The notes under the pieces: generated by a model
The model's database searches: none
What the model was told of the DNA's origin: nothing
Seen by the model: only the letters and a program-made list of their open reading frames with translations
Shown: piece after piece, positions 26,899 through 43,401 of the stretch
Layout: each line of letters starts with the position of its first letter
Position numbering within the stretch: the first letter of the stretch is position 1
Assembly: GCA_018823885.1 (NCBI GenBank)
Contig: JAHJHG010000008.1
Coordinates: 1-44,639, forward strand
Reading direction: 5' to 3'
Origin: Patescibacteria group bacterium
GTDB lineage: Bacteria > Patescibacteriota > Microgenomatia > UBA8517
DNA length: 44,639 bases
Program-made: the position numbers and the translations under genes

Positions 26899-28221
26899 AT
26901 GTTAACCCTTCGATATCTTGTTCGTTTAATTAGAGCGTTTTTGACACGCTTTAAAGGCATTCTTTTTTTAAGCTTTGCTTTGGGAATTTTGTCTTTTGTG
27001 ATACTAAACCTCTTAGGTCCAACCCTGCTAAGCAGAAGTACGAAGAAAATAGGTATTACAGGTAGATTCAGAACAGACAATCTTCCTGATTTTATAATAA
27101 ATAATGTTAGTGATGGGTTAACCAAATTGGATGAAAGCGGTGTTGTCGAGCCATCCCTCGCATCTTCTTGGGAAACACCGGACAAAGGGAAAACATGGTT
27201 CTTTTATTTGCGTGACGATATTTATTGGCAGGATGGAAAAAAAGTAACAAGCGAAACGATTGGATATGATTTTTCTGATGTAGAAATAGAAACACCAGAT
27301 GAAAAGACCGTCATATTTAAACTGTCCAATGCTTTCTCTCCTTTTCCTACGGTGGTCTCCAAACCAACTTTCAAAAAAGGGTTGTTGGGAACAGGGGAGT
27401 GGCGAGTCAAAAATATTACCGTCGCCGGCGGGTATGTTCAAGAATTAGTTTTAACAAACAAGGAAGAAGGGAAAATTATCTATCGGTTTTATCCCACAGA
27501 AGAAAGAGCAAAGCTTGCATATAAATTAGGGCACGTAGATCGTCTTATCAACATCTATGACCCAACCCCATTAGATTCATGGAAATCAGTAGAAATAGTT
27601 AAAGAATCCAATGACAATCAGGTTGTTTCCATCTTTTTCAATGTTCAAGATAAATATTTGTCAGAAAAATCACTAAGGCAAGCCTTGGTTTACGCGATTG
27701 ACAAAGAATCATTTGACGGCGAAAGGGCTTATGGGCCTCTCTCACCAACCTCATGGGGCTATAACCCTCAGGTTAAAACATATGGTTATGACGAATCTCG
27801 AGCAAAGGAACTGATAGAAGAATTAGACGAAGAACAGACAAAAGATCTAGAGATAAAATTACTGACAACTCCAATACTCTTACCAACGGCAGAGAGAATT
27901 GCTAAATATTGGGAAGCAATTGGAGTTAAAACCGTATTACAGGTTTCATCAGGAGTTCCAGCTGACTATCAGGCTCTTTTAGCCGTCTTTGAAATTCCTA
28001 AAGATCCGGACCAATATTCTATATGGCATTCAACTCAATCGTCGACAAACATTTCAAATTATCAAGACCCAAGGATTGACAAGCTGCTTGAAGACGGGCG
28101 TGCCGAACTTACAATTTTGGAGAGAAGTAAAGTATACTTAGATTTTCAACGCTATCTAGTTGAAGATTCCCCAGCTGCTTTCATATATCATCCAACTTCA
28201 TATACAGTTAATAGAAAATGA
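26899..28221 (+). CDS. ABC transporter substrate-binding protein, family 5-like (peptide-binding)
   Basis: N-terminal TM; SGVVEPSLASSWETPDKGKTWFFYLRDDIYWQDGKKVTSE, LRQALVYAIDKE. Confidence 0.88.
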   Translation: MLTLRYLVRLIRAFLTRFKGILFLSFALGILSFVILNLLGPTLLSRSTKKIGITGRFRTDNLPDFIINNVSDGLTKLDESGVVEPSLASSWETPDKGKTWFFYLRDDIYWQDGKKVTSETIGYDFSDVEIETPDEKTVIFKLSNAFSPFPTVVSKPTFKKGLLGTGEWRVKNITVAGGYVQELVLTNKEEGKIIYRFYPTEERAKLAYKLGHVDRLINIYDPTPLDSWKSVEIVKESNDNQVVSIFFNVQDKYLSEKSLRQALVYAIDKESFDGERAYGPLSPTSWGYNPQVKTYGYDESRAKELIEELDEEQTKDLEIKLLTTPILLPTAERIAKYWEAIGVKTVLQVSSGVPADYQALLAVFEIPKDPDQYSIWHSTQSSTNISNYQDPRIDKLLEDGRAELTILERSKVYLDFQRYLVEDSPAAFIYHPTSYTVNRK

Positions 28222-28254
28222 TATTTAGTGGCTGGAAGTGTTGAATTAAGCTTA

Positions 28255-28728
28255 TTATTCCTTAAGGGTTGGTTTCTCGGTCTTTTTCTTTGCCGTGCTC
28301 TTAGGCTTGATTTTTTTGTTTTTGGCCACAGCTTTTATCACTACTTTCTTGGCCTTAATAATTTTAGGGGTCGATTTCTTTTTACCACCTGACTCAAGCA
28401 CATTAAGAATTCTATCTAGTTTTGTATTCAGGGAGCTTACTTGTTCCAATAATTGTTTGTTTGTATTATCTCTTTTTCCAAAGTCAGATCCTCCTGAGCC
28501 TCTTCGGGTTGGTCTTCTTGGGCTTCCTCCCTCCTTTTTCTCAAAGCAGCTACTACAATATATTGGCTTGTCTCCACTTGGTCTAAATGGAACCTCGCAG
28601 CTGTTTCCACACTCGTCACATACCGCCTTGTGCATTTGTCTTTGGCCAGAATCACGTCTACGAAAATCTCCTCCTCCGCCTCCATATCCTCCACCACCAG
28701 ACCTATTATTTCGATTGTAGTTACCCAT
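28255..28728 (-). CDS. CxxC-x17-CxxC zinc-ribbon protein with Gly/Arg-rich N-terminus and Lys-rich tail
   Basis: VCDECGNSCEVPFRPSGDKPIYCSSCFEKK; RNNRSGGGGYGGGGGDFRRR; KKSTPKIIKAKKVVIKAVAKNKKIK. Confidence 0.88.
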   Translation of the reverse strand: MGNYNRNNRSGGGGYGGGGGDFRRRDSGQRQMHKAVCDECGNSCEVPFRPSGDKPIYCSSCFEKKEGGSPRRPTRRGSGGSDFGKRDNTNKQLLEQVSSLNTKLDRILNVLESGGKKKSTPKIIKAKKVVIKAVAKNKKIKPKSTAKKKTEKPTLKE

Positions 28729-28806
28729 ATTTTCCTTACTTAAATATTATACTCCATATATATATAAAAACCATAAACAATATATTCTGTGACTGTGTAG
28801 ACTACT

Positions 28807-29052
28807 TCAAAGAAGTTTCTCTCTCAACTGTGAGACCAGGATTGCTTTATCGCAATATTTTCGTGTCTTTTTTGTTCCATCACATTCAAGGCACCTTTTT
28901 TGCTCCTTAGAAGACGCGGTGTCAAGAGTTAGGTGTTGGAAGCTCGCTAGTTTTTCAAGGTGAAAAGGTAAATAATTCTTCCAAAAACACAAATCTCTTT
29001 CTCTCATACCGGAAATATTACCATATTTATCTGAAATTACTATTTTTTCCAA
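28807..29052 (-). CDS. hypothetical small protein
   Basis: 81 aa with CLECDGTKKTRKYC; TTG start preceded by GGCGGGGTG; no recognised family. Confidence 0.35.
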   Translation of the reverse strand: MEKIVISDKYGNISGMRERDLCFWKNYLPFHLEKLASFQHLTLDTASSKEQKRCLECDGTKKTRKYCDKAILVSQLREKLL

Positions 29053-29198
29053 TAAAACACCCCGCCTTCATGATTTTGCTATTAAACCCAATACCACTCT
29101 CTGCTTGCCTTCTCTTTCTATTATTACAGACACGAAGCAACTATAGTATTGGCATTAAAATTTTTCAACTTAACCTCAATCAAAAGGAGAGCTTCTTT

Positions 29199-29234
29199 GG
29201 GTGGATAATGACCTTTATTTTTGAACCCTTTTAT
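29199..29234 (+). repeat. Interspersed element subfamily B, copy B1
   Basis: gggtggataatgacctttatttttgaacccttttat; same GGGTG...GAACC architecture as B2/B3, with one extra T. Confidence 0.7.
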
Positions 29235-29236
29235 TG

Positions 29237-29256
29237 TGTCTAACTGTTGTTAGACA
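29237..29256 (-). terminator. Perfect 8-bp stem hairpin overlapping the cold-shock gene stop codon
   Basis: TGTCTAAC-TGTT-GTTAGACA. No strong T-run on the minus side, so terminator function is uncertain. Confidence 0.4.
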
Positions 29257-29447
29257 AGTTTTACATTCTTAGCACTAAGGCCTTTTTCGCCATCTACGAC
29301 ATCGAACGTAACTTCTGCTCCTTCTTGAAGTTCATCAAAAGTTACACCGTCCAAGTCTGAAGAGTGAAAGAAAAGATCCTTTGTTTCTCCCTCACGGGAA
29401 ATAAAACCAAATCCTTTATCTGTTTTTGTTTTAACTACTCCGTTCAT
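29250..29447 (-). CDS. cold-shock domain protein (CspA family)
   Basis: MNGVVKTKTDKGFGFISREGETKDLFFHSSDLDGVTFDELQEGAEVTFDVVDGEKGLSAKNVKLV. Confidence 0.95.
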   Translation of the reverse strand: MNGVVKTKTDKGFGFISREGETKDLFFHSSDLDGVTFDELQEGAEVTFDVVDGEKGLSAKNVKLV

Positions 29448-29539
29448 AGAATTTTTGATAGATTTATATATTAAATCCTCTTGTACCTCCTTTCATTCTT
29501 TATATTATACAGCCTTGGGCGACAATCATCAATTGTGTT

Positions 29540-29577
29540 GGGTAGCTTACCAAACGATGTTAGAACCCATTTCATAA
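29540..29577 (+). repeat. Interspersed element subfamily A core, copy R1
   Basis: gggtagcttaccaaacgatgttagaacccatttcataa. Confidence 0.93.
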
Positions 29578-29631
29578 CTTCCGAAGGTAATGATGTGGTG
29601 TTGTTTAGTAGTTACTTTCTCCAATAAAACT

Positions 29632-29674
29632 GAGGGCCGTTTGAATAAAGATTTCTCTTTACACTCGTACCCTC
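29632..29674 (-). terminator. Hairpin downstream of R1, likely terminator of the minus-strand gene ending at 29688
   Basis: gaggg ccgtttgaa taaaga tttc tcttta cactcgta ccctc; T-rich tract (AGTTTTATT) follows on the minus strand; near-identical to 38512-38554. Confidence 0.7.
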
Positions 29675-29687
29675 TAAGTACTATATG

Positions 29688-30386
29688 TTACTTAACATCT
29701 TCAGTACCAGTAGTTACAACATCCTCGCCAAGATATATTGTGCAGCCCGAAACTAAGTATTCTTGGTTATGCCATACCTCGCAGTTTGGATTATGTGCCA
29801 CTAGACTAACCCGAAGACGTAATCCTTTTTTGAATCCAATTACTTCCCTGTCATCCTGGAAGAAATAATAGATTTTATTTCCCTCTACGGTACAATTGTC
29901 GGTTGTCCCAGGAATACAGTCAGGTAAAGGTCTGTGGTTATGGATAGGCTCAAAGAGCTCGTAGATGTAATCATCTGCGGTAATGCCGAAAGCATATTCT
30001 CCATATTCTGCATTAGTGGAAACTTCCAGCACCAATGTAAAATCGGGACCATGGACGATTTCTCCGTTTTTGGGAGAAATTATTGTTATATTGCCCCAAA
30101 TTTCTTCCTCTTCCTGAAAAGGGGTTTTAGTCTCTTCGATTTCCACAATCACTTGTCCGGTGATTTTATTCCCATCTTCAGAATCTTCAGAATCTTCTAA
30201 CGGATTTGATACGCCTAGATCTTCCGCCATTTTCTCGACGTTAGAATAGGCAACGTCCTCTGCAACTTCAAAGGCGTCGTAACAACCACCAAGAATTAAA
30301 GAACCTGCCAGTAAAACTGCTAATACTACAAGCTTTTTCATTTCGCACCTCCTTTGATTAGCGATTGTGCTAAAGCATATTTTCAA
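29688..30386 (-). CDS. hypothetical lipoprotein
   Basis: Lipobox MKKLVVLAVLLAGSLILGGCYD (start probably the internal ATG preceded by AGGAGGTGCG near 30341); no recognised domain. Confidence 0.75.
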   Translation of the reverse strand: MKICFSTIANQRRCEMKKLVVLAVLLAGSLILGGCYDAFEVAEDVAYSNVEKMAEDLGVSNPLEDSEDSEDGNKITGQVIVEIEETKTPFQEEEEIWGNITIISPKNGEIVHGPDFTLVLEVSTNAEYGEYAFGITADDYIYELFEPIHNHRPLPDCIPGTTDNCTVEGNKIYYFFQDDREVIGFKKGLRLRVSLVAHNPNCEVWHNQEYLVSGCTIYLGEDVVTTGTEDVK

Positions 30387-30402
30387 TTATTGTTTTCAAA
30401 TT

Positions 30403-31227
30403 TTACTGCATATATTTTGCCCACAGTTCTTCAAACATCTCATTGGCTATTAGCCAGATTTGCTCGGCGTGATCAAAACACCAATCGATATATTTAGGAT
30501 CACCTTTGCCGACCATCGGTTGATTATCTGAATCCTCGGGCCAATAGAAATCCAATACTTCTTTAACTGCTTGCTCTCGATCGTTGTACCCTATGAGCAA
30601 TCCATACATGGGCTCAAGTGAATTTCCGAGATCTGCTCGAATTTCCCCACGTTTTCCATTTATATTCCACTCATAATGCCTCCAGCCCTCGTATTCCAGC
30701 TCTGCTGCAATCCTAAAATATAGAGACATATCGTAAACATCTATTTCACTGTCTCCGCCAGGCAAGACGACGCTAAGAGTGTGTTGTTCACTCCATATTT
30801 GCCAAGTATAGTCAGACAAGAAACTTGGGGGAATTCTCCCTTCGCTGTTATCCTGAAAGATTACTCTTCTTATGTTGTTTACAGGCTCTTCAATATTGGT
30901 CAGCATCACTTTCATTTTTGCGAGATCCCTTTGCTTTCTCTCAAGATATTCATCACGACAAACATATCCACCATTTGCGTTGCAGTCACCGCTTGCACAA
31001 TCTGAGCCTGTTAAACATTGTTGTCCGAGCTCGCAAGGATTACAGTATCCACCACAGTCTATATCACTTTCCTCCCCGTCTTTAACGCCGTTATTGCATG
31101 TTTTTGTTTTTTCTTCTATGTCTATTGTGGGAGCAGCCTGTTTTGACTGACACCCTCCTACTAAATGCGTCATAGCAATAAGTAAAAAGCATGCTGTCTT
31201 ATTCATCATGTTCTCCTTTAAATACAC
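30403..31227 (-). CDS. hypothetical Cys-rich lipoprotein
   Basis: Signal/lipobox MMNKTACFLLIAMTHLVGGCQS preceded by AAGGAGAAC; CNNGVKDGEESDIDCGGYCNPCELGQQCLTGSDCASGDC disulfide-rich module. Confidence 0.75.
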   Translation of the reverse strand: MYLKENMMNKTACFLLIAMTHLVGGCQSKQAAPTIDIEEKTKTCNNGVKDGEESDIDCGGYCNPCELGQQCLTGSDCASGDCNANGGYVCRDEYLERKQRDLAKMKVMLTNIEEPVNNIRRVIFQDNSEGRIPPSFLSDYTWQIWSEQHTLSVVLPGGDSEIDVYDMSLYFRIAAELEYEGWRHYEWNINGKRGEIRADLGNSLEPMYGLLIGYNDREQAVKEVLDFYWPEDSDNQPMVGKGDPKYIDWCFDHAEQIWLIANEMFEELWAKYMQ

Positions 31228-31363
31228 TAGTTGAAGCTTGTTAAAGAGCTTGTCTTTAAGGTAGGTTTCTGCGCAGATGCAAAAACCACCATAGATTTAA
31301 TTCTTGTCTAGAATTGGCGCTATTATATATAAACTGAAGTAAAAAATCAAAGCTATGGGGTTT

Positions 31364-31401
31364 GGGTGACTTACCAAACGATGTTAGAACTCATTTCATG
31401 A
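31364..31401 (+). repeat. Interspersed element subfamily A core, copy R2
   Basis: gggtgacttaccaaacgatgttagaactcatttcatga; this copy also forms a perfect hairpin GAACTCAT-TTC-ATGAGTTC. Confidence 0.93.
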
Positions 31402-31627
31402 GTTCAGAAGATAAAGAAAATGTGATGTTGAAGTATTGTTTTTAAAAGATGTGACACTGGGTGAATATCTATTAATGGTGTCTTTAATCTTATCCAAAGG
31501 AAGAATCTTTAGTATTTCCTAGAAGTAGATGAAACGGAAAAACAGCACGAAATAGGAACAAAGTGTATTTGCAATAAATACACACTGATACAATTTCGAG
31601 AGCAACCAAATTACTCTGTTTAGAGAG

Positions 31628-31664
31628 GGTGCCTCTACCAACAAACAGTAGAGACACCCACAAG
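31628..31664 (-). terminator. Hairpin downstream of the minus-strand secreted-protein gene
   Basis: GGGTG-C-CTCTA ... TAGAG-A-CACCC, just 3' of the stop codon at 31682. Confidence 0.5.
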
Positions 31665-31681
31665 TAGCAAACAGTGCTTGG

Positions 31682-32338
31682 TTACGGAGTAAAGTTGTGG
31701 ATGTTTGCACGCCACGCATCGACGTCCAAACGATTTCCCGAACCTCCGATCAAGTGGTCGCAGACCCAGGTGTTGTTGTCATAGACAGGTCCGTAACACG
31801 GTACGTTTGTGGCTACCCACTCAGGGTTGGTCTTCGGGAAGCACAATGCCGCCTGCACCTCTACACCAACGTAACCTACCGGTGACGCCAAAGCGCACCA
31901 GGAGCCGTCATCGGCGGTACCAAGCCAGGCGCTAAACACGACCGTGGCTTCGGGTCCACCAGACGTTGGTACGGATGGCGGGGCACAGTCCAGCCAAATT
32001 TGTAAAGTTTGAGCCTTGCCGCCATTCTGAACAATGTAGCCTTCTTCTGGGGGCGTGTAGGTATAACCGAATGGTGTGTTCGGGTAGTTTACTCCACCAG
32101 CGGTCGATGCCCCAGGCTTCCATACGACAGATTCGCCAACAGGGTATATGTTGCCTTGGACACCAGCATTAACCACTACTAGGCCCGTTGGGCAAGACCA
32201 CCCTCCCCATCCTGTACCACTGTAATTCAGGGGCGATGACACTACGTGGGTTATTCCCCCACCGTTAGCGAACGCCGATCCTAAGGGTAGTGCCAACAAG
32301 AACACTACCAGCAAAGTCAACAAATACTTCTTTTTCAT
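31682..32338 (-). CDS. hypothetical secreted protein
   Basis: Signal peptide MKKKYLLTLLVVFLLALPLGSAFA preceded by AAGGAGAAGGT; G+C clearly higher than neighbours. Confidence 0.8.
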   Translation of the reverse strand: MKKKYLLTLLVVFLLALPLGSAFANGGGITHVVSSPLNYSGTGWGGWSCPTGLVVVNAGVQGNIYPVGESVVWKPGASTAGGVNYPNTPFGYTYTPPEEGYIVQNGGKAQTLQIWLDCAPPSVPTSGGPEATVVFSAWLGTADDGSWCALASPVGYVGVEVQAALCFPKTNPEWVATNVPCYGPVYDNNTWVCDHLIGGSGNRLDVDAWRANIHNFTP

Positions 32339-32592
32339 CTTACCTTCTCCTTATTTATAGGTATCTCGGCTTGATAGAACACTATTTGTTACTTTCATTA
32401 CCTCCTTTTTGAATTATATTGGTTGCGACTTTCCAACAAAGTTGAAAAGTCTGTTTTTCCGTTGTCAAAGTTCTTTAAAAGTGATTTATCCATTATCCTC
32501 CCAAACTGGAAAGCTGTGGATAATCGGATAGATTATAGATAAAAGGGTCTGGTTTGTCAATTTTATGGAAGCTTTAGCGGTGCTTAAATTTA

Positions 32593-32630
32593 GGGTGACT
32601 TACCGAACGATGTTAGAACTTATTTTATAG
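32593..32630 (+). repeat. Interspersed element subfamily A core, copy R3
   Basis: gggtgacttaccgaacgatgttagaacttattttatag. Confidence 0.92.
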
Positions 32631-32702
32631 CCCCAGGTCACGATCAAGAGAAAACATTATTGGGTAATTTAATTCGTGTGAAACCTGTGTATTTTGAATG
32701 TA

Positions 32703-33206
32703 TTACTTAGGAGACTTTTGAAGCCAATTCCAAGCATTCCAAAGCCTATTTGGATACTGACTGACACCGTGGTCGCTTAGAAATATATATGAACACTCAT
32801 TACCATCTTGTATTCCTTCGCAATCAACTTTCCACGCAGCCTCATCTTGATACGGCTCACTCGTTACAACAATTTCTCCCATAACCTCATCATTATGACG
32901 TAATAATAATTTCATTCCCTTCTTTATCTCCTCAGGTTTTAATATCTGTTTGTCACCATGAATTTTTTGCTCGACTGCTTGAAAAAAACCATGCTTTTTC
33001 AGCTTTTCAGCTATTTCGGGGTTTCTCGCAGAATCCAGAAAATCTTCAATGTCGAAAGGATGTATGCCTGGCGACTTGTCGAGTATCTCTTCAAATCCTG
33101 AGTACTCCTTTGATACAAGCTGAATATGTATGTGCCCTGGCACAAGAGGATTATCTGCTTCTAGTGTCATTTCGTGCATTCTAATAATAAATATACAAAT
33201 AGTCAA
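32703..33206 (-). CDS. hypothetical protein
   Basis: Long ORF between two elements; start could be the internal MHEMTLEADN. No recognised domain. Confidence 0.6.
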   Translation of the reverse strand: MTICIFIIRMHEMTLEADNPLVPGHIHIQLVSKEYSGFEEILDKSPGIHPFDIEDFLDSARNPEIAEKLKKHGFFQAVEQKIHGDKQILKPEEIKKGMKLLLRHNDEVMGEIVVTSEPYQDEAAWKVDCEGIQDGNECSYIFLSDHGVSQYPNRLWNAWNWLQKSPK

Positions 33207-33261
33207 TAAAAGTAAACTTTATCAGCAACTTCTACATAAAATACTAGACTAATTGAGGCTG

Positions 33262-33299
33262 GGGTGACTTACCGAACGATGTTAGAACTCATTTGATAA
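33262..33299 (+). repeat. Interspersed element subfamily A core, copy R4
   Basis: gggtgacttaccgaacgatgttagaactcatttgataa. Confidence 0.93.
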
Positions 33300-33462
33300 C
33301 TGTTGAGTACAAAGAAACAATACTGTTGGCAAAATATAACTATTTGCAAGGATCGCAGGTTTTTGAGTTGAATTTGGAGGTTGTTAAGTTTTTTTAGACA
33401 AGCAAACCCTATGCCGATTTGTTTAGAAATCCGCATAACTAGGCTAATTTTTTAAACTGCAA

Positions 33463-33534
33463 CTACTTCTGGCACTCGCAAGTTTTGCAATCACAGTTGC
33501 AAGAACAACACTTTTCGTGTTCTGACACAAACAT
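33463..33534 (-). CDS. putative metallothionein-like Cys-rich micropeptide (not in ORF track)
   Basis: Manual translation MFVSEHEKCCSCNCDCKTCECQK*, 7 Cys in 23 aa; AAGGGGGTG immediately upstream. An alternative GTG start at 33526-33528 gives better spacing. Confidence 0.5.
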   Translation of the reverse strand: MFVSEHEKCCSCNCDCKTCECQK

Positions 33535-33629
33535 CACCCCCTTCCACTTTAAGATTAGCAAACGTGTCAAGTGTTGGCGTTGTTTGTTTACGAAGTTTAA
33601 ATACTATTTTTTTTGGTAAACAAATCTAG

Positions 33630-33672
33630 GGGTGGATAACGACTTTTATTTTGAACCACATTTAGCCTTATT
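33630..33672 (+). repeat. Interspersed element subfamily B, copy B2
   Basis: gggtggataacgacttttattttgaaccacatttagcctta. Confidence 0.75.
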
Positions 33673-33728
33673 CATGAAACTTCAAGGGGCATATCCAGAG
33701 TGTAAAGGACAGTTTAGTTGTATTTAAA

Positions 33729-33752
33729 AGTGACTTACTGAAGATGTAAGGG
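33729..33752 (+). repeat. Degenerate subfamily A remnant
   Basis: agtgacttactga-agatgtaagg resembles GTGACTTACCGAACGATGTTAG with one deletion. Confidence 0.35.
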
Positions 33753-33836
33753 TATTTGCAACCTTATCGCACTTTTGATTAGATATAGATGTCAAAAGAT
33801 TTGAAGATGCAATACTTTTATGATAGCATGCCCTAG

Positions 33837-35807
33837 ATGCTTAAAACAGTTAGTAAACAAATTAGGTTTGTTTTTAACTTCTTTTTTCTTCTTTTTGTTT
33901 TAAGTTTGTTGTCCCCTAATACAATTTATGCACGTGATTACGAGTGGATAGATCAGTTTGGCAACGAATTATACTATCTTCATGATTCTGCGGGGGGCGC
34001 TGTCTTTAACGATGCAGATGAGTTGTATGTTTTGTCTACTACATATGACTTTTTAAACGGGAATAACGTGCGCGATACTTTCTTGAGAAAATATGATCAG
34101 ACAGGTTCTTTGATATGGGAAAATAACTCTATTCCGGGAGGCATGGGAGGTGTTGCCTTGGACAATGAATCAAATATATACGTTACTACATTTAATCTCC
34201 ATGATGGTAATTTTGTGGCTTATTTAGTAAAACTTAATTCTTCAGGGAGCGAGCTTTGGACGAAAGAATTTGGATTTAGTTCAAATGCGTCCATAATTGT
34301 TCACCGAGTCGCAGTTGATAATTATGGAAACAGCTATGTGGTAGGAGTTAGTTATGGAGGTGGATTTATTAGAAAGTTTGACCCTTTGGGCAACGAGCTT
34401 TGGACTAACTATCATGACCGAAGTGAATTTAGAGGAGTAACAGTAAAAGACCAAAATCTTTATGTATCTGGACAAGCAAACAATAGGAGTTTTGTCGGCA
34501 AATATGATTTAGATGGGAATGTTCAATGGGAAAGGGAAAATTATTCTGTGGATGCTCGAGATCTGTCCATTGATGATTTTGGAAATATATATGTGGTTGG
34601 TAAAAGTTTCACGGGCGGATATATTCAAAAATATAACTCGGAAGGTTTTGAACTATGGAACAGAGAAATTAGTAATCCGTGGACGACGGCAACGTGGAGT
34701 AATGGGGTAGAAATAGGTGCAGATGGAGTAGTTTCTGTTGTTGGAGGATCCAGCTCGTCTTTAACAGAACCTTATATAAGTTTTGGGAATTATAGACCTT
34801 ATGTTCAAAGGTATGGGACTGGCGGAGAGCTTCTTTGGACATATTTTTATACTAATTCTGACATAACAAATGGAAATGGTCGTGATGTTGCAGTGGGAAG
34901 TGATGGAAGATTTGCTGTTTCGGGACAAATTACTGGAACCATTGCTGGAGAAACTCAAGATGGAACCGATGCCTTTGTTGCCTATTACTCAACCAATAGC
35001 TCGCCGATAGCCAATGCTGGTCAGGATCTAATAATTGAAGAAGGTTTTGACCTAATTTTAAGCGGGTCTGGTTCTTACGATCAAGATGGATTCATCGACA
35101 TCGTCAATTATGATTGGGATTTTGGAGATGGATTGACAAGTAGCGGAGAAACTATGAGCCATACTTTTACTGATAACGGTATCTATTCTGTCACTCTTAC
35201 TGTTACTGACGCTGAAGGAAAATTTGATTCAGATACTGTCACTTTCACCGTTAACAACGTTTCCCCAATCGGTACTTTAATAATTTCTCCTGCGGCAATT
35301 TCTCCTGGTGAATCATCTACTTTGAGTTTCAGTAATCAATATGATCCCAGTATTACCGACTCTATAGCCGGATTTACTTATTCCTACGACTGCACCAACG
35401 ATGGTGTTTTTGAGTCTGTAGATAGCCAATTTGCAACGTTCACTTGTCATTATCCAAATGTTGGTATATATACGGCCAAGGGGCAGATTAAAGACAAAGA
35501 TAATGGTTACAGTCATTATACCGTTGCCATTAATGTTCGAACACCTTCAGAGGCGATCTATGAAATAATCGATCTCGTTGAGACTTTTAACTTCGAGCAA
35601 GGAATTGATAATGGTTTGGACGGTAAACTTGATGCCGCCCTAAGTACGCTCGATGACCTAAACGAAAACAATGATGTCGCTGCTATTAATTCTCTTATTT
35701 CATTCATCAATACTGTTGAAAATCAAAGAGATAATTTGATAACTAGCGAACAGGCAGATATCTTAATTACCGCAGCACAAGCAATAATTGATGGCCTTTC
35801 TTCCTAA
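33837..35807 (+). CDS. secreted beta-propeller (SBBP-like repeats) + PKD domain + C-terminal FIMAH-like domain protein
   Basis: Signal peptide; repeated GNxYVVGxSxxGGxIxKYxxxGxELW; SPIANAGQDLIIEEG...GSGSYDQDGFIDIVNYDWDFGDG PKD; terminal FNFEQGIDNGLDGKLDAAL...AINSLISFINTVENQRDNLITSEQADILITAAQAIIDGL. Confidence 0.82.
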   Translation: MLKTVSKQIRFVFNFFFLLFVLSLLSPNTIYARDYEWIDQFGNELYYLHDSAGGAVFNDADELYVLSTTYDFLNGNNVRDTFLRKYDQTGSLIWENNSIPGGMGGVALDNESNIYVTTFNLHDGNFVAYLVKLNSSGSELWTKEFGFSSNASIIVHRVAVDNYGNSYVVGVSYGGGFIRKFDPLGNELWTNYHDRSEFRGVTVKDQNLYVSGQANNRSFVGKYDLDGNVQWERENYSVDARDLSIDDFGNIYVVGKSFTGGYIQKYNSEGFELWNREISNPWTTATWSNGVEIGADGVVSVVGGSSSSLTEPYISFGNYRPYVQRYGTGGELLWTYFYTNSDITNGNGRDVAVGSDGRFAVSGQITGTIAGETQDGTDAFVAYYSTNSSPIANAGQDLIIEEGFDLILSGSGSYDQDGFIDIVNYDWDFGDGLTSSGETMSHTFTDNGIYSVTLTVTDAEGKFDSDTVTFTVNNVSPIGTLIISPAAISPGESSTLSFSNQYDPSITDSIAGFTYSYDCTNDGVFESVDSQFATFTCHYPNVGIYTAKGQIKDKDNGYSHYTVAINVRTPSEAIYEIIDLVETFNFEQGIDNGLDGKLDAALSTLDDLNENNDVAAINSLISFINTVENQRDNLITSEQADILITAAQAIIDGLSS

Positions 35808-35898
35808 AACCTCAATAATGTTTTTTGATTAGTCTCTAACAAACTTTACCAGGCACCGTATCTACGAATTGCCCGATATCACGGCCATTTATGCGTCT

Positions 35899-35936
35899 GG
35901 GTGGACTACCGGACGCTGTTAGAACTCATTTCATAA
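35899..35936 (+). repeat. Interspersed element subfamily A core, copy R5
   Basis: gggtggactaccggacgctgttagaactcatttcataa. Confidence 0.92.
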
Positions 35937-36050
35937 ACTCAGGGATAGGGAACAATAAATGGCAGAAAATTCAAGAATATATTCGTTGAAGTGCAGATGG
36001 TAATATAATTAGAAATTAAATAATTCCTATAGTATAATATATCCACTAGT

Positions 36051-37643
36051 ATGCTTGAAAGAAAACAAGACTTTATAAGAAGAGATTTTCTTAAAGCTTC
36101 CTCGGTAATCGCCGGAGGCTTACTGCTTTCTGCCTGTACAGATCCTAAAAAGAATATTCCTGTAACAGCAACTAATATTGCAACTAAATTTCCCACAGAA
36201 ACTACTACTCCCACTCCTACAAGTACGGAAACCCCCACCCCCACTCCAGAGGCAAGGGTGGATGGACTTCATTACTTAGATAATGTTCCATCCCCAAAAG
36301 AACTTGAAAGCGGAGACATTCAGGGGTTTGATAAATATCTTAATGCGTTTGAAACATCTCACGATGAGGTTTTTTCAAGATTGGAGATTCGGGATTGGCT
36401 AGTGGGTAAAGATGGAGAAGAAAAACAGCTAAAGGACGCAAAGGGGAACCCTTTGGTAGTTGTTGTTGATAAGGAAACACAAATTCCCCTTCTTTATGCA
36501 AAACAAAACGAAGAAAAGGTTTGGAAATGGAATAGGGCTACTCTTAGAGATTATGCAGAATTAAATGACATGATTATAGAGTCGATTGTCGGTGTAGACG
36601 GACGAAGAGCGGATCCAATAAACGAAATTGTTAATAAAATAGTTATCGCAGGAGCATTCGATATGACTCAATTTTTCCGAAGTTTTGGACCCTATCATTG
36701 GGATAAAGTCCTTGAAAATTGGGACGAAATAATTACCAAGATTAATAAAGGTGAAAAGCTCTCAGAATTTACGTATAACAAAGTTGGTTTAAGAGAGATG
36801 ACTGAACAGGTAGAGAAATATAATGTAAAAATCAGAGCCCAACATTTGCTTTATGGCATAGATGTTCCAGCTAGTATTAGATACGGAGGTTATACACATG
36901 AGGAGATTGAGAAGCTGGCAGAATTTACTGTTAAATTTCGTGTAAATGAATACAAAGACATGGTTGAAACGTGGGATATTGCAGATGAGGTTGTTAACTC
37001 TCATTATTATGGAGGCGACACTTGGAATTTTTGGATGGTACGATTGGGAGGATATAAAGAAATGACTCTCAAGGTTGCAAGATGGGTTAAGGAAGTCGAT
37101 CCCAATGCAAAGCTGGTAGTAAATGAAGATAATGTTTTGGACAATTCTTTTCCTCAGCAACCTTTCCAAAGAAGAAAATTCATAGAGCTTTTGGAGTATT
37201 TAAAAGAAAATGGGGTTGAGGATGTTGGTGTCGTAGTCGAAAACAACCTTTGGATTTTCGATCCACCGACTTTTGAAGGAAATTACAGTGTCCGAAGCCG
37301 GCTAAAAGAAATATTAGAAGTAGGATATCCCTTTGTGGGTGGTGAGACAACCATTGTCGTTTCTGATGATTACCCTTCCTGGGGAGGTAGGCCCAAATCA
37401 ATATGGGGAGTAGAAGACAGGTACAAAGCACAAGAGGAAATGTATGTTGACCTCTTTCAAAGCTATTTGGATGTTGGTATTAAAGCTTTCGGTTTTGGTG
37501 TCTGGGCAGACGCATATGCATGGCAAAAACTAATTGGATCGGAAGATTCTGACCCGTGTATTTTTGATGACAATGCCGAACCTAAAAAGGTTTACTATCG
37601 CCTTATAGGTCTTTTGAACAGTAATCTTATTAAAAACTCCTAA
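36051..37643 (+). CDS. GH10-like (endo-1,4-beta-xylanase family) lipoprotein with twin-arginine-type signal
   Basis: IRRDFLKASSVIAGGLLLSAC Tat-like plus lipobox; Thr/Pro linker TPTPTSTETPTPTPE; KIRAQHLLYG, VETWDIADEVVNS (acid/base Glu region), VGGETTIVVSDD (possible nucleophile region). Confidence 0.75.
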   Translation: MLERKQDFIRRDFLKASSVIAGGLLLSACTDPKKNIPVTATNIATKFPTETTTPTPTSTETPTPTPEARVDGLHYLDNVPSPKELESGDIQGFDKYLNAFETSHDEVFSRLEIRDWLVGKDGEEKQLKDAKGNPLVVVVDKETQIPLLYAKQNEEKVWKWNRATLRDYAELNDMIIESIVGVDGRRADPINEIVNKIVIAGAFDMTQFFRSFGPYHWDKVLENWDEIITKINKGEKLSEFTYNKVGLREMTEQVEKYNVKIRAQHLLYGIDVPASIRYGGYTHEEIEKLAEFTVKFRVNEYKDMVETWDIADEVVNSHYYGGDTWNFWMVRLGGYKEMTLKVARWVKEVDPNAKLVVNEDNVLDNSFPQQPFQRRKFIELLEYLKENGVEDVGVVVENNLWIFDPPTFEGNYSVRSRLKEILEVGYPFVGGETTIVVSDDYPSWGGRPKSIWGVEDRYKAQEEMYVDLFQSYLDVGIKAFGFGVWADAYAWQKLIGSEDSDPCIFDDNAEPKKVYYRLIGLLNSNLIKNS

Positions 37644-37699
37644 GGTCAGCAATTAGGCCAAAACCCCCCTTCCTTTTGTTTGAAGCATAGATGCGGTGT

Positions 37700-37921
37700 T
37701 TAAATATATTCTTTTGCATTAAACCTAAGTGAAGGATCCGGATTTTCTCCAATAGAGATACGGTTGGTTGCCCACGTAATGGGACCGAATTGATTAAGGC
37801 CAACATAATTTCCGTTCACTGCGTTTGGATCTACCACATATTGAGCTGTGAATCTTTCAATTAAGGCATTAATCCGCTCCGAACTTATTGGCGCTGGTGT
37901 GGGGACGAAAGATGGAGTTGG
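37700..37921 (-). pseudogene. C-terminal gene fragment truncated at the left edge of element R6
   Basis: Minus-strand translation PTPSFVPTPAPISSERINALIERFTAQYVVDPNAVNGNYVGLNQFGPITWATNRISIGENPDPSLRFNAKEYI*; no start codon; the frame reaches a stop inside R6. Confidence 0.65.
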
Positions 37922-37958
37922 GGTAACTTACCAAGCGATGTTAGAACTCACTACATAA
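37921..37958 (+). repeat. Interspersed element subfamily A core, copy R6
   Basis: gggtaacttaccaagcgatgttagaactcactacataa. Confidence 0.9.
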
Positions 37959-38006
37959 CTTCAGATGCTGCAGTAAATGGCATTTTGAAAAAAATGTTAC
38001 AAGCTA

Positions 38007-38012
38007 TATAAT
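38007..38012 (+). promoter_or_regulatory. -10 hexamer TATAAT, 6 nt upstream of ATG 38019 (putative leaderless promoter)
   Basis: TATAAT-TACTTT-ATG. Confidence 0.55.
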
Positions 38013-38018
38013 TACTTT

Positions 38019-38345
38019 ATGGGTCTGGAAGACGGCGAAAGCGTAAAGATAGATAAACCATTTAAAGAGGGTAGTGTTTCTGATTTAATCGAAAATCTAG
38101 AAATATTAGACCATAAAATTCAAGGACGATTTCTTGCTTTAGATTCCAATGCAGGTAGACTAGTTGAAGTTCAATTTAAAACTCCAGATAACAAGAAGCA
38201 ACTTACTGGTTATGTAGAGAAATGGAATTCCGAGGGTGATTTGTGGGTTATGGTACAAAAAGAACCAGATAAATCAGAATTTAAACACTATCGACTTTCG
38301 CCAAACCAAAATATCAGATCAAGATTAATAAATCTTAACAAATAG
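38019..38345 (+). CDS. hypothetical protein
   Basis: 108 aa; promoter-like TATAAT directly upstream; sits between R6 and R7. Confidence 0.6.
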   Translation: MGLEDGESVKIDKPFKEGSVSDLIENLEILDHKIQGRFLALDSNAGRLVEVQFKTPDNKKQLTGYVEKWNSEGDLWVMVQKEPDKSEFKHYRLSPNQNIRSRLINLNK

Positions 38346-38420
38346 ATTATCGAGGCCCACTTCTAAGTTCGAACCACTATTATTCCTAAAGTAGGGGGCG
38401 TTCCTGAGGTTGTACGATTG

Positions 38421-38458
38421 GGGTGACTTACCGAATGACGTTAGAACTCATTTTATAA
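38421..38458 (+). repeat. Interspersed element subfamily A core, copy R7
   Basis: gggtgacttaccgaatgacgttagaactcattttataa. Confidence 0.93.
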
Positions 38459-38511
38459 AGTCTGAAGCCAACGCATATGTGGTCTTAAGCAATTACTTTC
38501 TGCAAAAAACA

Positions 38512-38554
38512 GAGGGCCGTTTGAATAGAGATTTCTCTCTAAGCTCGTACCCTC
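38512..38554 (-). terminator. Hairpin downstream of R7, likely terminator of the minus-strand gene ending at 38571
   Basis: gaggg ccgtttgaa tagaga tttc tctcta agctcgta ccctc; TGTTTTTTG follows on the minus strand; homologous to 29632-29674. Confidence 0.75.
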
Positions 38555-38570
38555 TTTTTGCACCTTGTTA

Positions 38571-39074
38571 TTAGATTTGTCCTAGGTTTTTCAGAATTTG
38601 GAGTATAAGTATCAAAAATAAGACAATACTGATCACGCTAAGAATTTTTCTCCTTTTCTTTATTTCTGGAGTGATTGGATCGGGTTTGGGCCGCAATTCT
38701 TTTTTGTACTCTGTTGAAAGAGAGTTCCATTGTTTCCAGTTCATCGGCTCCCCCCTGAACCCTATCCTAGGTTTCCACATCATCATAAAAATACAACCCA
38801 CGAATTGAAGGGCAAGGCCTATGATCAAACCAATGAGTGGATTACGTCCTTTACCATCGGCAACGGCCCAACCAATTACTGCCCAGACGATGAAGTAAAT
38901 TCCATAGCAGCTCATGCCCGCAATTTGCCGCGCCAGACACAAACCCGTGAGCCCCGCTATGGGGTCGTTGTCGCTGCATCCGGCCTGAGCACTTGCACTA
39001 AAGATCCACAACCAGGCAATTCCGTAGATTACCACAGGTACATAGTAACGATAGGATATCCACAGTTTTTTCAT
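38571..39074 (-). CDS. hypothetical membrane protein
   Basis: About four hydrophobic segments; start preceded by AAGGAGGGCG. Confidence 0.75.
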   Translation of the reverse strand: MKKLWISYRYYVPVVIYGIAWLWIFSASAQAGCSDNDPIAGLTGLCLARQIAGMSCYGIYFIVWAVIGWAVADGKGRNPLIGLIIGLALQFVGCIFMMMWKPRIGFRGEPMNWKQWNSLSTEYKKELRPKPDPITPEIKKRRKILSVISIVLFLILILQILKNLGQI

Positions 39075-39218
39075 TTTCGCCCTCCTTGTGGCGAATGATT
39101 AGACAGGATTGTCAAGGTACGCAAAAATACCCGAAGGATTCGGGCAAGTAGCTATATTATACTCTATAACATCAATTTTGAAGAGAATTGATGATATCTT
39201 TTTATAGAAGAGTATTTG

Positions 39219-39256
39219 GGGTGACTTACCGAACGATGTTAGAACTCATTTCATAA
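39219..39256 (+). repeat. Interspersed element subfamily A core, copy R8
   Basis: gggtgacttaccgaacgatgttagaactcatttcataa. Confidence 0.93.
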
Positions 39257-39398
39257 GGTCGGGAAATAAAGAAAAGACATTATTGTTCAATATATTGCCT
39301 TTAAAAAATAGCTGTTGGAGTTAAAGCTTACATGGAATACCTTCCGTCAACAGCTGAATTGTATATTCAAACTGGTTGATGATATATTATTATTAAGC

Positions 39399-40835
39399 AT
39401 GGAAAAAGAAACAACACAAGATAGTAAAACCACAATACCTGAAGTTCAATCTGAACCTAAAGAAGATCTTCAACCCGTCACTCAAGATCCTGAAACTCAA
39501 CAAATATCTCCTGAGGTGGTAATGGACTCCGAATCAGTCATTAATCAGCCTGTCAAAAATAAAAACAAATTGTTGATGATAATTCTTGTATTACTTCTAA
39601 TTTTAATCGGGGCTGGTGGGTTTTTTGGCTATAGATATTACCAATCAATGCAACAACCCGCTGAAAATGGGGTAACTGTTCCGGTTCAAACGGAAGAGGT
39701 CGATCTTTCAAAATCACACAACACTTTTGGTTTTAACTTGTTTAAGAAATTAGCCTCAATAACCACAGCTGAAGATGAAAATGTTTTTATTTCTCCTACA
39801 AGTATTTCTGTCGCGCTTTCGATGATATACAACGCTGCTGATGGTGAAACGAAAGAAGAGCTTTCCAGTTTGCTGGGATTTCAAAACCTTAGTACAGATA
39901 ATATAAACCAAAATACAAAAGACCTTTTGGACAGTTTCAATTCAGAATCTGATATTACCTTACATTTACTAAATTCATTGTGGGGAAATAAAGTTTTTGT
40001 TTTCAATCAGACCTTTATCGACACACTAGAAACTTATTACGAGGCAGAGGTTTCATCAGTGGATTTTGCTGATCCGAATACTGTTGACACAATCAACGGT
40101 TGGGTTAACTCTGCCACTTCAGGAATAATTGAATCTGTTTGTTCAGATCTTCCAAAAGACGGAACCAATGTTTTAATTAACGCTATTTATTTCAATGCTA
40201 GGTGGTCAAGTATGTTTTTATCTTTTCTATCTTCTGACTTACCATTCAACAATAATGATGGAGAAGTGGTTATACATCCTTTTATGAAACAGACAAGATA
40301 TAGAGGAAACTATGCCGAAACTGACAATTACCAGGCAATTCGGTTGCCGTATGGGATAAATGAAGAAGTGGCAATGATTATTGTCTTGCCAAAATTTGAC
40401 GTTGATGAGTTTATAGAAAATATAGACCTAGACGCTTGGAACTCAATTCTAGAGCAGTTTGAATTTAAAATAGGTACCATTATTCTCCCAAAGTTTAAGG
40501 TGGAAAGTAATTACCAAATGGACGAAATCTTACCATTGCTTGGTATGATAAAAAGTTTTACTCCGGAGGCTGATTATCTCAACATGTTAGACGATTCGTC
40601 CAACTTACCATATGTCTCTATTGAGGAAATAATTCACAAAGCTATTATTGAAGTAGACGAGGAAGGAACAGAAGCGGCAGCTGTTACTGCTATCCTTCCA
40701 ATAGCAATGGGAGGGAAACCGCCAGAGTTGCCTGAATTTTATATGGAAGTAAACAGTCCGTTTATCTTTGCTATTCAAGATGAACAAAGTGGAGAAATAT
40801 TATTTATTGGAACGATAAAAAACTTGTCTAAATAA
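39399..40835 (+). CDS. membrane-anchored serpin (serine protease inhibitor family I4)
   Basis: N-terminal TM (KLLMIILVLLLILIGAGGFFGYRYY); NVFISPTSISVALSMIYNAADGETKEEL; hinge EVDEEGTEAAAVTA; C-terminal FYMEVNSPFIFAIQDEQSGEILFIGTI. Start placed at ATG 39399. Confidence 0.92.
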   Translation: MEKETTQDSKTTIPEVQSEPKEDLQPVTQDPETQQISPEVVMDSESVINQPVKNKNKLLMIILVLLLILIGAGGFFGYRYYQSMQQPAENGVTVPVQTEEVDLSKSHNTFGFNLFKKLASITTAEDENVFISPTSISVALSMIYNAADGETKEELSSLLGFQNLSTDNINQNTKDLLDSFNSESDITLHLLNSLWGNKVFVFNQTFIDTLETYYEAEVSSVDFADPNTVDTINGWVNSATSGIIESVCSDLPKDGTNVLINAIYFNARWSSMFLSFLSSDLPFNNNDGEVVIHPFMKQTRYRGNYAETDNYQAIRLPYGINEEVAMIIVLPKFDVDEFIENIDLDAWNSILEQFEFKIGTIILPKFKVESNYQMDEILPLLGMIKSFTPEADYLNMLDDSSNLPYVSIEEIIHKAIIEVDEEGTEAAAVTAILPIAMGGKPPELPEFYMEVNSPFIFAIQDEQSGEILFIGTIKNLSK

Positions 40836-40855
40836 AAAGAGTTCAAAGACTTAAA

Positions 40856-41428
40856 ATGGAAAAAATGAAATCTACCCGTTTTGCTAAACATGTTATTAAG
40901 ATTTTATCTAAAGAACATAGAGGCATGACTCTTTATTTCTTCTGGGGCGGCTTCACTATCTTGCAAATTCTTTTTGTGACCCTTATAAGTACTTTTTTTG
41001 TTTGGGCGGTATTTTATTTTGTAGAAAATAATCAAGGATTTTATATCGCCGCAAGCTTGGGAGTATTGCTTGCATCTATAACCATATCACCTCTTCTATT
41101 GGCTGTGACGACTGAAAAAACAGAACTTGAACGCCTACTTGTAAGAGGGAAAGAGCTTTGGAAGGAGAAGACACTTGCTATGCTCAATAACAAAAACCCA
41201 ATCTTTAATAAATTTATGAGCGCGCCGTATTGGAAGGTTGCACTGCTTTCAGTGTTAGTTTATTACCTTTTTCCTTCAGACAATAATATAACAGAATGGT
41301 TTGTGGTGACATTGTCTTTTTTCATGGCCACGACGGCGATAATTCTTTTACTGGCTAGGCTTGTTCTTTTTTTGAAATTTAGAGGTTCATTGAAGAAAAC
41401 TCTCGGCGATCCTGTTCTAGAAGGGTAA
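40856..41428 (+). CDS. hypothetical membrane protein
   Basis: 190 aa with four TM segments. Confidence 0.7.
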   Translation: MEKMKSTRFAKHVIKILSKEHRGMTLYFFWGGFTILQILFVTLISTFFVWAVFYFVENNQGFYIAASLGVLLASITISPLLLAVTTEKTELERLLVRGKELWKEKTLAMLNNKNPIFNKFMSAPYWKVALLSVLVYYLFPSDNNITEWFVVTLSFFMATTAIILLLARLVLFLKFRGSLKKTLGDPVLEG

Positions 41429-41608
41429 AAAGAAATGGCCTTTTTTAATGTTTTGAATCAGCATTGGGCCATATTGACAGTACCCATCCCAAAGCGCACC
41501 ATCCTCGGTCTCGCCACCACATGGGATTTTAATAAACCATAAGAATATGCCTAATATAAGAAATATAAAAAGTATTATACGAACTATAATAAAATCTTTT
41601 CGCCTCAC
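41417..41608 (-). CDS. hypothetical small membrane protein
   Basis: 63 aa, one TM segment, Cys-containing tail; weak support. Confidence 0.4.
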   Translation of the reverse strand: MRRKDFIIVRIILFIFLILGIFLWFIKIPCGGETEDGALWDGYCQYGPMLIQNIKKGHFFLPF

Positions 41609-41666
41609 AATTTAATATGTCATCATACATTAAGGAAGTCAATGATATTGAAGCTAATAATACTAT

Positions 41667-41710
41667 GGGTGACTGATGCATCTTATTTTGAACCGCTTTT
41701 AGCCCATTTC
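41667..41710 (+). repeat. Interspersed element subfamily B, copy B3
   Basis: gggtgactgatgcatcttattttgaaccgcttttagcccatttc; the first eight bases match subfamily A (GGGTGACT). Confidence 0.65.
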
Positions 41711-41756
41711 GAGCAATTAAGGCTTATTTACGAAGCCGAAGAAAAGGAGGAAGGCC

Positions 41757-42197
41757 ATGCATAATTCCTCACTTTTCGACGAAACCACCTTCTACAAGCA
41801 ATTTAGCAAAGATTTGCGTTCCTGCAAAACCGAGGTAATTATCGAAAGTCCCTTCATAACCTCGGACAGAATGGCCACATTGTACCCTATTTTTGAGAAG
41901 CTTATTCAGCGTAAGGTGAATGTGTATGTTATAACTCGCGACCCCAGTGAACATTCGGATGTGTACAAAAAACAGTCTGAAGCGGAAATTCAACGCTTTG
42001 AAAGTCTCGGCGTTCAGGTCTTTATTTGCCTGGGGAACCATCACAGAAAACTGGCGATTTTGGACAGGAAAATACTTTGGGAAGGCAGTTTAAATATTCT
42101 GTCTCAAATGAAGAGTCGGGAAATTATGAGACGCATTGAGAAAAAAGAAACAGCAGGGGAGATGTTCCGTTTTCTAAAACTGGAGCGGTTTATTTAA
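41757..42197 (+). CDS. phospholipase D-like domain protein (single HKD motif)
   Basis: EVIIESPFITSDRMATLYPIFEKL...HHRKLAILDRKILWEGSLNILSQ; preceded by AAAGGAGGAAGGCC. Confidence 0.85.
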   Translation: MHNSSLFDETTFYKQFSKDLRSCKTEVIIESPFITSDRMATLYPIFEKLIQRKVNVYVITRDPSEHSDVYKKQSEAEIQRFESLGVQVFICLGNHHRKLAILDRKILWEGSLNILSQMKSREIMRRIEKKETAGEMFRFLKLERFI

Positions 42198-42246
42198 TAA
42201 TGCAGTTGAACGTGATATTCTTATCTAGTATAAAAAGGTAGAAGTT

Positions 42247-42501
42247 ATGAACAAAGCACCTAAAGAAAAAGAAATTCAAAAAATCTTAAAAATTCTAAAA
42301 CAAACACACCCGGAGAAAGCCACGCGGAAGTACGCGATCAAAACCATCAAGAGTATGAGGAAATTTGCATCTATGGTTATTGACAGAATCGAGGAGGACT
42401 TGGAGTCTGGGAAAATAAAAATCTCAGAGAAGGGCGAAGTTATGAGGGAGGGGAAAGTAATTAAAAAAGCCGATGATCCAGAAAATAAGTCAAAAGGGTA
42501 A
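42247..42501 (+). CDS. hypothetical protein
   Basis: 84 aa, charged; no recognised domain. Confidence 0.55.
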   Translation: MNKAPKEKEIQKILKILKQTHPEKATRKYAIKTIKSMRKFASMVIDRIEEDLESGKIKISEKGEVMREGKVIKKADDPENKSKG

Positions 42502-42696
42502 AATTTTGGAAGACTTTACCTTCAGGGCTTTGGCTATCTTCTCCAAAACTTCAAAGGTCGGGTTTTCTTCGCCTCTTTCTATTCGGGCGTAATAATTAAC
42601 ATGAATCCCCGCCTTCTCGGCTATGTCTGCCTGGGTTAAACCAAACCTCTCTCTTACCTTTTTGATGTTTTTTCCTAACTTATCTTGTAAAACCAT
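42490..42696 (-). CDS. XRE-family helix-turn-helix regulator
   Basis: LGKNIKKVRERFGLTQADIAEKAGIHVNYYARIERGEENPTFEVLEKIAKALKV. Confidence 0.92.
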   Translation of the reverse strand: MVLQDKLGKNIKKVRERFGLTQADIAEKAGIHVNYYARIERGEENPTFEVLEKIAKALKVKSSKILPF

Positions 42697-42789
42697 AAAA
42701 CTTTAAATCCATTTTATATTATACAACTTTTGTGGATAGCTGTTTCTGAGTTATAGCCTGCTTCTAACGGCAAGGGCTAGTAAACTATG

Positions 42790-43401
42790 TCAGGAGCTTC
42801 CTAAGAATACCCTCGGATTTACGGGAATCCCGAATACATTAATCTGGAAGTGTAAATGATTTCCTGTTGCCCAACCTGTACGCCCTTCTGTTCCGATTAT
42901 ATCTCCAGGTTTAACATCCTGTCCCTTTTCGACATTTATTGTATCCAAATGGGCATAAATTGAGGTGAGGTTATCTTCGTGGTCAACGACTACATGCTTG
43001 CCGAATCCCCAGAAAATCCGTCCTGCATAAACTACCTTGCCCTGCATAAACGGAGTAATCGGATCTCCCTTTTTGCCATCGGGGTTTGCTATATCAATAC
43101 CTGTATGAAATGGTTGGAAAATGCTTGATTCTCCGAATTCTAAAGTAATTACTCCTTTAACTGGCCAGACAAAGGTCCCTGTTATTTCCTTATAAACCGA
43201 GCCGTCTTTGGGATTTTTAATTAAAACCGATCCGGTGACGCTGTCATATTCAACCAACTTGTCCGAAACGGCATCAATTCCGACCCTGGTTATGACGATT
43301 ACGGCAATTATCGGCAAGATTATGGCCAGCAAGAAGGCCGTTGCTACATAAATTATTTCTTTTCTGAAAGAAAAAAGCGTAAATAGAAGCTGGGGGCTCA
43401 T
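42790..43401 (-). CDS. M23 family metallopeptidase, membrane-anchored
   Basis: N-terminal TM; FHTGIDIANPDGKKGDPITPFMQGKVVYAG...VVDHEDNLTSIYAHLD...GRTGWATGNHLHFQI. Confidence 0.92.
   Translation of the reverse strand: MSPQLLFTLFSFRKEIIYVATAFLLAIILPIIAVIVITRVGIDAVSDKLVEYDSVTGSVLIKNPKDGSVYKEITGTFVWPVKGVITLEFGESSIFQPFHTGIDIANPDGKKGDPITPFMQGKVVYAGRIFWGFGKHVVVDHEDNLTSIYAHLDTINVEKGQDVKPGDIIGTEGRTGWATGNHLHFQINVFGIPVNPRVFLGSS

Follow-up and report, generated by a model that had tools for sequence, protein, structure and literature searches.

The window analysed here, i.e., the whole stretch of 44,639 nucleotides that makes up contig C8 (GenBank JAHJHG010000008.1) of assembly GCA_018823885.1, belongs to a 756-kb, 98%-complete genome in 9 contigs (source genome, G000). 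An earlier note on this DNA spoke conditionally of a host-associated Patescibacterium; the genome is that of a Patescibacterium of the Microgenomatia type. Between 29.5 and 41 kb, copies of a short directional repeat site alternate with genes, and we consider this region to be probably an array of mobile gene cassettes, integron-like or dif-module-like, of an undescribed type, the movement of which we infer from sequence. In the source genome 720 genes were called (87% coding) and two were added by hand, and all of them were classed by identical rules; export was predicted with our own hydropathy and lipobox rules on our own gene calls. The site copies and the genes around them are as follows (GC3, GC content at third codon positions; TM, transmembrane).

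29531-29608, plus strand: site copy 1, subtype A
29688-30341, minus strand: predicted lipoprotein, 217 aa, no family, lipobox LGGC, shortened by a better start at 30341
30403-31209, minus strand: predicted lipoprotein, 268 aa, Cys-rich segment, no family, lipobox VGGC, shortened by a better start at 31209
31355-31432, plus strand: site copy 2, subtype A
31682-32338, minus strand: classical signal-peptide protein, 218 aa, GC3 5.1 standard deviations above the genome mean
32584-32661, plus strand: site copy 3, subtype A
32703-33179, minus strand: protein of 158 aa without export signal, no family
33253-33330, plus strand: site copy 4, subtype A
33837-35807, plus strand: secreted beta-propeller (SBBP/PQQ) and PKD protein, 656 aa, N-terminal signal
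35890-35967, plus strand: site copy 5, subtype A
36051-37643, plus strand: GH10-like lipoprotein, 530 aa, GH10 E=7e-15, RR-type signal RRDFLK...SAC
37912-37989, plus strand: site copy 6, subtype A
38019-38345, plus strand: protein of 108 aa without export signal
38412-38489, plus strand: site copy 7, subtype A
38571-39074, minus strand: polytopic membrane protein, 167 aa, three TM segments, GC3 3.7 standard deviations above the genome mean
39210-39287, plus strand: site copy 8, subtype A
39399-40835, plus strand: serpin, 478 aa, E=1e-94, TM anchor near residue 57, hinge EEGTEAAAVTA
40856-41428, plus strand: membrane protein, 190 aa, between the last site and copy 3 of repeat family D2 (see below)

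The site is 38 to 78 bp long, about 38 bp of it conserved and the tail weaker; its core is GAYGTTMGAACYYATTWTA, its left part is variable, and GTTAGAA or GTTCGAA is kept in the core of nearly all copies of every subtype. All eight copies lie on the plus strand, within 9.7 kb, and all are intergenic. The number of matches expected in shuffled sequence is zero, and in 20,000 simulations ten random sites never reached a cluster of more than four; the source genome has two further copies, both on contig C5. Of the array intervals, six contain a single gene and two contain a pair, the nine cargo genes being mostly unrelated to each other and oriented both ways. The gaps in the array are long (median 324 bp vs 40 bp), and an extra 50-bp tail is common to the cassettes at 29531 and 38412. 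Relatives of the cargo were looked for in plasmids and viral contigs and none were found.

Related sites are largely a matter of the Microgenomatia. A peptide profile found copies in 24 of 374 Microgenomatia genomes, a DNA pattern listed 29 sites there (the reversed control gave about ten), and phylum-wide only four of 380 genomes had sites; please note that the claims made here leave out a sixth copy in G013 and weak matches in G012, G016, and G017. Arrays or pairs with all sites in one orientation were found in G013 (five sites), G009 (two), G043 (three), G359 (five), G056 (three), G103 (two), and G172 (two), each with its own subtype, i.e., its own left half. In G013 two sites are 91 bp apart, as an empty cassette would give, and G009 and G068 have a homologous gene immediately upstream of theirs. 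The cargo differs from array to array: among cargo genes and nearest neighbors we found RelB-like antitoxins, AbiEii, a methyltransferase, M23 genes, unknowns, and a ParE-like protein that scores below its cut-off. A contig of 4.5 kb (L254, G359 C17) is little more than an array of five sites, the cargo of which includes RelB-like and ParE-like genes. Since related arrays carry other kinds of genes, the array looks like a collection of swappable genes and not like a dedicated store of surface proteins.

The surroundings of the array are also shared with relatives.

26899-28221, plus strand: SBP_bac_5 protein, which flanks the hot-spot on the left and is conserved there throughout the family
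41757-44531, no strand assigned: right flank with PLDc, HTH, M23 peptidase, and VirB4-like ATPase (CD1110-like)

In family f1 the sites fall in a variable interval between the SBP_bac_5 gene and PyrG/DRG-GTPase genes, at 3.6 kb (G018), 4 kb (G019), 7 kb (G009), 11 kb (G021), and 14 kb (G008) downstream of SBP_bac_5; the array contig of G013 ends in a DRG-GTPase, which closes the interval elsewhere, and weak or unplaced cases such as G010 stand outside this locus pattern. In G172, which is of another family, the sites were seen by eye beside an SBP-like gene. The complete genome G007, in which no site was detected, has a GC skew that drops from +0.2 to about 0 at 560-590 kb, from the SBP_bac_5 gene on, and is negative thereafter; in the window the skew goes from +0.15 to about 0 ahead of the array, and in G242 and G018 the site lies no more than about 8 kb from the skew maximum. 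The GC skew thus places the variable zone downstream of SBP_bac_5 near the replication terminus, and in the window the hot-spot (26899-44639) coincides with the chromosome's skew change. The PLDc-HTH-M23-VirB4-like module (CD1110 family) adjoins arrays in two families (window 41757-44531; L197 9082-12707); in G043, of another family, the array is a few kilobases from the module, and the M23 there shares 71% identity with the one at the right end of the window. The VirB4-like ATPase is where the window contig breaks off, within the gene or just after it. The same hot-spot in G008 holds an element of about 10 kb (L181:6575-16860) with a large serine recombinase and a perfect 19-bp flanking repeat, ATCCCGTCGACCACCCCAA.

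Other identities of the site were considered. An Rfam search with the site gave no match, and an RNA-structure reading was rejected, no structure being found. The site is not a tmRNA, the canonical one being located elsewhere in the genome (C9:1509-1881, with a predicted tag that is rather long, ANKNVGLAGVSDYNFAFA), nor a tRNA attachment (att) site, the window being without tRNA. A second repeat family of 49 bp, D2, has three copies genome-wide, in the same orientation and all within the array or at its edges.

29188-29236, plus strand: D2 copy 1
33619-33667, plus strand: D2 copy 2
41656-41704, plus strand: D2 copy 3

The idea that D2 had diverged from the site was rejected, the similarity between the two being not significant.

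Our preferred explanation can be put as follows. A cassette would usually consist of one gene plus one lineage-specific, directional copy of the site; new cassettes would come in, or take the place of others, at a favored variable locus that lies downstream of SBP_bac_5 and close to the replication terminus; and a tyrosine recombinase, most plausibly a resident one of the Xer type, would join the sites in one orientation, by analogy with integrons and dif modules. In the source strain, cassettes for exported proteins would have accumulated, several of them probably from donors that process lipoproteins. Directional site-specific exchange would explain the orientation and spacing of the sites, the one subtype per genome, and the turnover of cargo; the repeats with their orientation, clustering, and mostly one-gene spacing, the locus, the arrays of relatives, the lack of LspA, and the classes of cargo are observed, and mobility, recombinase, donors, and selection are what we infer. 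If cassettes move, they would offer streamlined and possibly host-dependent bacteria a route to gain single foreign genes, and the sites would serve as a handle for finding cargo genome-wide. Several observations weigh against the cassette explanation. Sites are single-copy in most genomes; the source genome's two recombinases, which are Xer-like and score below the equivalog cut-offs, are on other contigs (C1:92574 and C6:83426), and G043 is alone in having a tyrosine recombinase, a short one of 182 aa, close to its array (about 4.5 kb or less); neither an excision product, nor an empty site between close strains, nor strain-level exchange was seen; the site of G113 is 24 kb off the skew maximum and that of G191 is away from the skew change; and a protein-like conservation of subtypes A-C, described below, is unexpected for a plain recombination site. 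The large serine recombinase of G008 was rejected as the enzyme, as its 19-bp att repeat differs from the site.

A more specific form of the cassette explanation takes the sites as diverged dif and the cassettes as Xer/dif-type modules moved by XerC/XerD. The terminus-zone location, the resident Xer-like enzymes, and the single copy in many genomes are in line with it, as is the toxin-antitoxin-like cargo, which is also known from Acinetobacter dif modules with their mixture of C/D and D/C sites (PMC6449649). However, the 28-bp XerC/XerD dif motif gave no match, the window sites scoring -8 to -19 with a matrix made of five dif sequences; the mixed site orientation of dif modules is absent, every array having a single orientation; and dif should be nearly universal, whereas the element was not found in most genomes. 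We regard diverged dif as unlikely.

The sites of subtypes A-C can be read in one frame as GxLPNDVRT(H/Y)(F/Y)..., running on for about 10 to 40 codons. A conserved frame of about 30 codons is seen at 29559-29650, at the equivalent positions of all copies, and at L133, L135-L138, L141, and L146. Testing for coding on copies that were found as protein introduces a bias; in a repeat of the test with sets found by DNA search, only this frame of the six shows conservative changes throughout (z-scores of about 2.6-2.8 for the genome's own DNA-found copies, 5.0 for the tails of pattern hits outside the pattern, and 4.7 for one genus). The variation is mostly synonymous, e.g., in L135-L138, and the Arg codon appears as AGA, AGG, CGA, CGC, CGG, and CGT. 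About half of the copies have no start codon or one that is out of frame, stop codons often precede the frame, and no parent gene for the peptide was found in the genomes, IMG/VR, phages, PDB, or Pfam. One may suppose that the repeat is a small selfish or peptide-coding element of about 30 codons that inserts in the gaps of a plastic, gene-poor terminus, the genes between the copies not being cassettes. The protein-like frame with its many synonymous changes (z 2-5) would suit such an element, and so would its different loci in related genomes and its mostly single copies; but all copies have one orientation in every array, the start codons are inconsistent as described, and the subtypes of G043, G359, and G056 keep the core without the coding tail, so that we hold a selfish element to be rather improbable. 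Equally tentative is the idea of a new cassette system, largely confined to Microgenomatia, in which the near-terminus site doubles in several lineages as a translated peptide of about 30 codons and exchange would swap the peptide tail together with the gene.

The earlier note suggested that, in a host-associated Patescibacterium, the array could be an exchangeable repertoire of surface and host-interaction proteins. All of the proteins that it named (two lipoproteins, signal-peptide, propeller/PKD, GH10-like, and membrane proteins, and a TM-anchored serpin) are present with the stated feature; the cargo genes at 32703 and 38019, which are without export signal, were absent from its list. The domain matches of the products at 36051 and 39399 are those of GH10 xylanases and bacterial serpins, respectively, with an RR/lipobox signal fused onto the former here and an N-terminal TM anchor onto the latter. 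Export or membrane signals are predicted in 7/9 cargo proteins (three lipobox, two signal-peptide, the TM-anchored serpin, and the polytopic protein) vs 315/713 other genes (44%, p=0.046), and the lipoprotein, signal-peptide, or single-TM class is reached by 6/9 vs 158/713 (22%, p=0.006); all of these enrichment tests are post hoc, the array region having been picked after the fact. With the C5 pair pooled in, the latter class stays enriched (6/11, p=0.02), any TM or signal peptide loses significance (7/11, p=0.16), and a stricter rule gives 8/11 for the extended array (p=0.045). A run of about nine consecutive exported or TM genes at C1:64000-76000 of the same genome is denser than the array, so the array is not unique. 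Outside the main array the picture is the reverse: among 22 cargo genes from six other arrays plus the C5 pair, only three have a TM segment or lipobox vs 43% of the background, which is a depletion (p=0.004), and the main array differs from the others in exported cargo at p=0.0014. The enrichment is modest, post hoc, and local to the main array, and is best seen as a feature of the source strain's holdings and not of the cassette system.

This 98%-complete genome has no credible lipoproteins other than the three lipobox proteins of the array; the few further matches to the lipobox regular expression look like a kinase, a metallo-hydrolase-like protein, and artefacts of start choice or composition. 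LspA (PF01252) was not found in the source genome or in any sampled relative of its family or order, with a control positive in 10/14, and it was found in four genomes of other families. By eye, no evident Lgt candidate stands out among 29 polytopic proteins, no hidden Markov model search being made. With LspA missing, canonical maturation of the array lipoproteins is not possible and a surface repertoire as a working function is weakened; as these are the sole credible lipoproteins, the simplest reading is that they were probably imported from lipoprotein-making donors. Such genes, standing in a genome that lacks LspA, would mark a recent import in a concrete way.

What stands of the earlier note's proposal is that the cargo looks exchangeable (the arrays differ, two genes have foreign GC3, and the locus is variable) and that exported products are over-represented here relative to the genome; an excess among element-bounded genes in general does not hold. 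An inhibitory-type serpin hinge, a GH10-like protein, and PKD/propeller proteins are plausible outside the cell, and a surface function of the main array is possible, not as a rule. As an explanation of the whole system, a dedicated exchangeable repertoire of surface or secreted proteins for host-cell interaction is quite doubtful, given the depletion in the other arrays, the lipoproteins without LspA, and the small counts chosen after the fact.

That the array is a cluster of attC sites lacking integron-integrases (CALIN), i.e., an integron cassette array without integrase, has very little probability and was already disfavored: same-orientation sites around single genes, one subtype per genome, and toxin-antitoxin-like cargo would fit, but the core sequence GTTAGAA or GTTCGAA departs from GTTRRRY, the R' box that pairs with RYYYAAC, neither strand forms a hairpin (folding z-scores average +0.1 and -0.3, and there is no consensus fold) and strong linear conservation is seen instead, and the genome has no integron integrase, its own recombinases reaching 118.9 and 48.5 bits with TIGR02249, far below the cut-off of 265.

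No literature on cassette arrays or integrons in Patescibacteria was found in the searches made. Like integron arrays and CALIN, the present arrays have single genes between directional, genome-specific sites in one orientation, with at least two same-orientation sites and genes between them, and accessory cargo including toxin-antitoxin-like genes; unlike these, they have no R'/R'' boxes, hairpin, or integron integrase, their genes run in both directions, and they lie in the terminus zone. With the Acinetobacter dif modules (pdif, PMC6449649) they have in common that short conserved sites flank the genes, that toxin-antitoxin cargo occurs, and that the host has Xer enzymes, the source genome having two resident Xer-like proteins of the XerC/XerD type. 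Unlike pdif, the 28-bp dif motif is not recognizable here, one orientation prevails, and the array is chromosomal in a Patescibacterium. Integrative elements that use Xer (IMEX) are stacked at dif, one insertion next to another in the terminus region and each with its own copy of the site, an arrangement that the present one may resemble; here, by comparison, the cassettes are 0.5-2.6 kb long and mostly single-gene, without phage or integrase genes. By the features tested the array is not an integron, nor is it a canonical dif module, and it may work like either.

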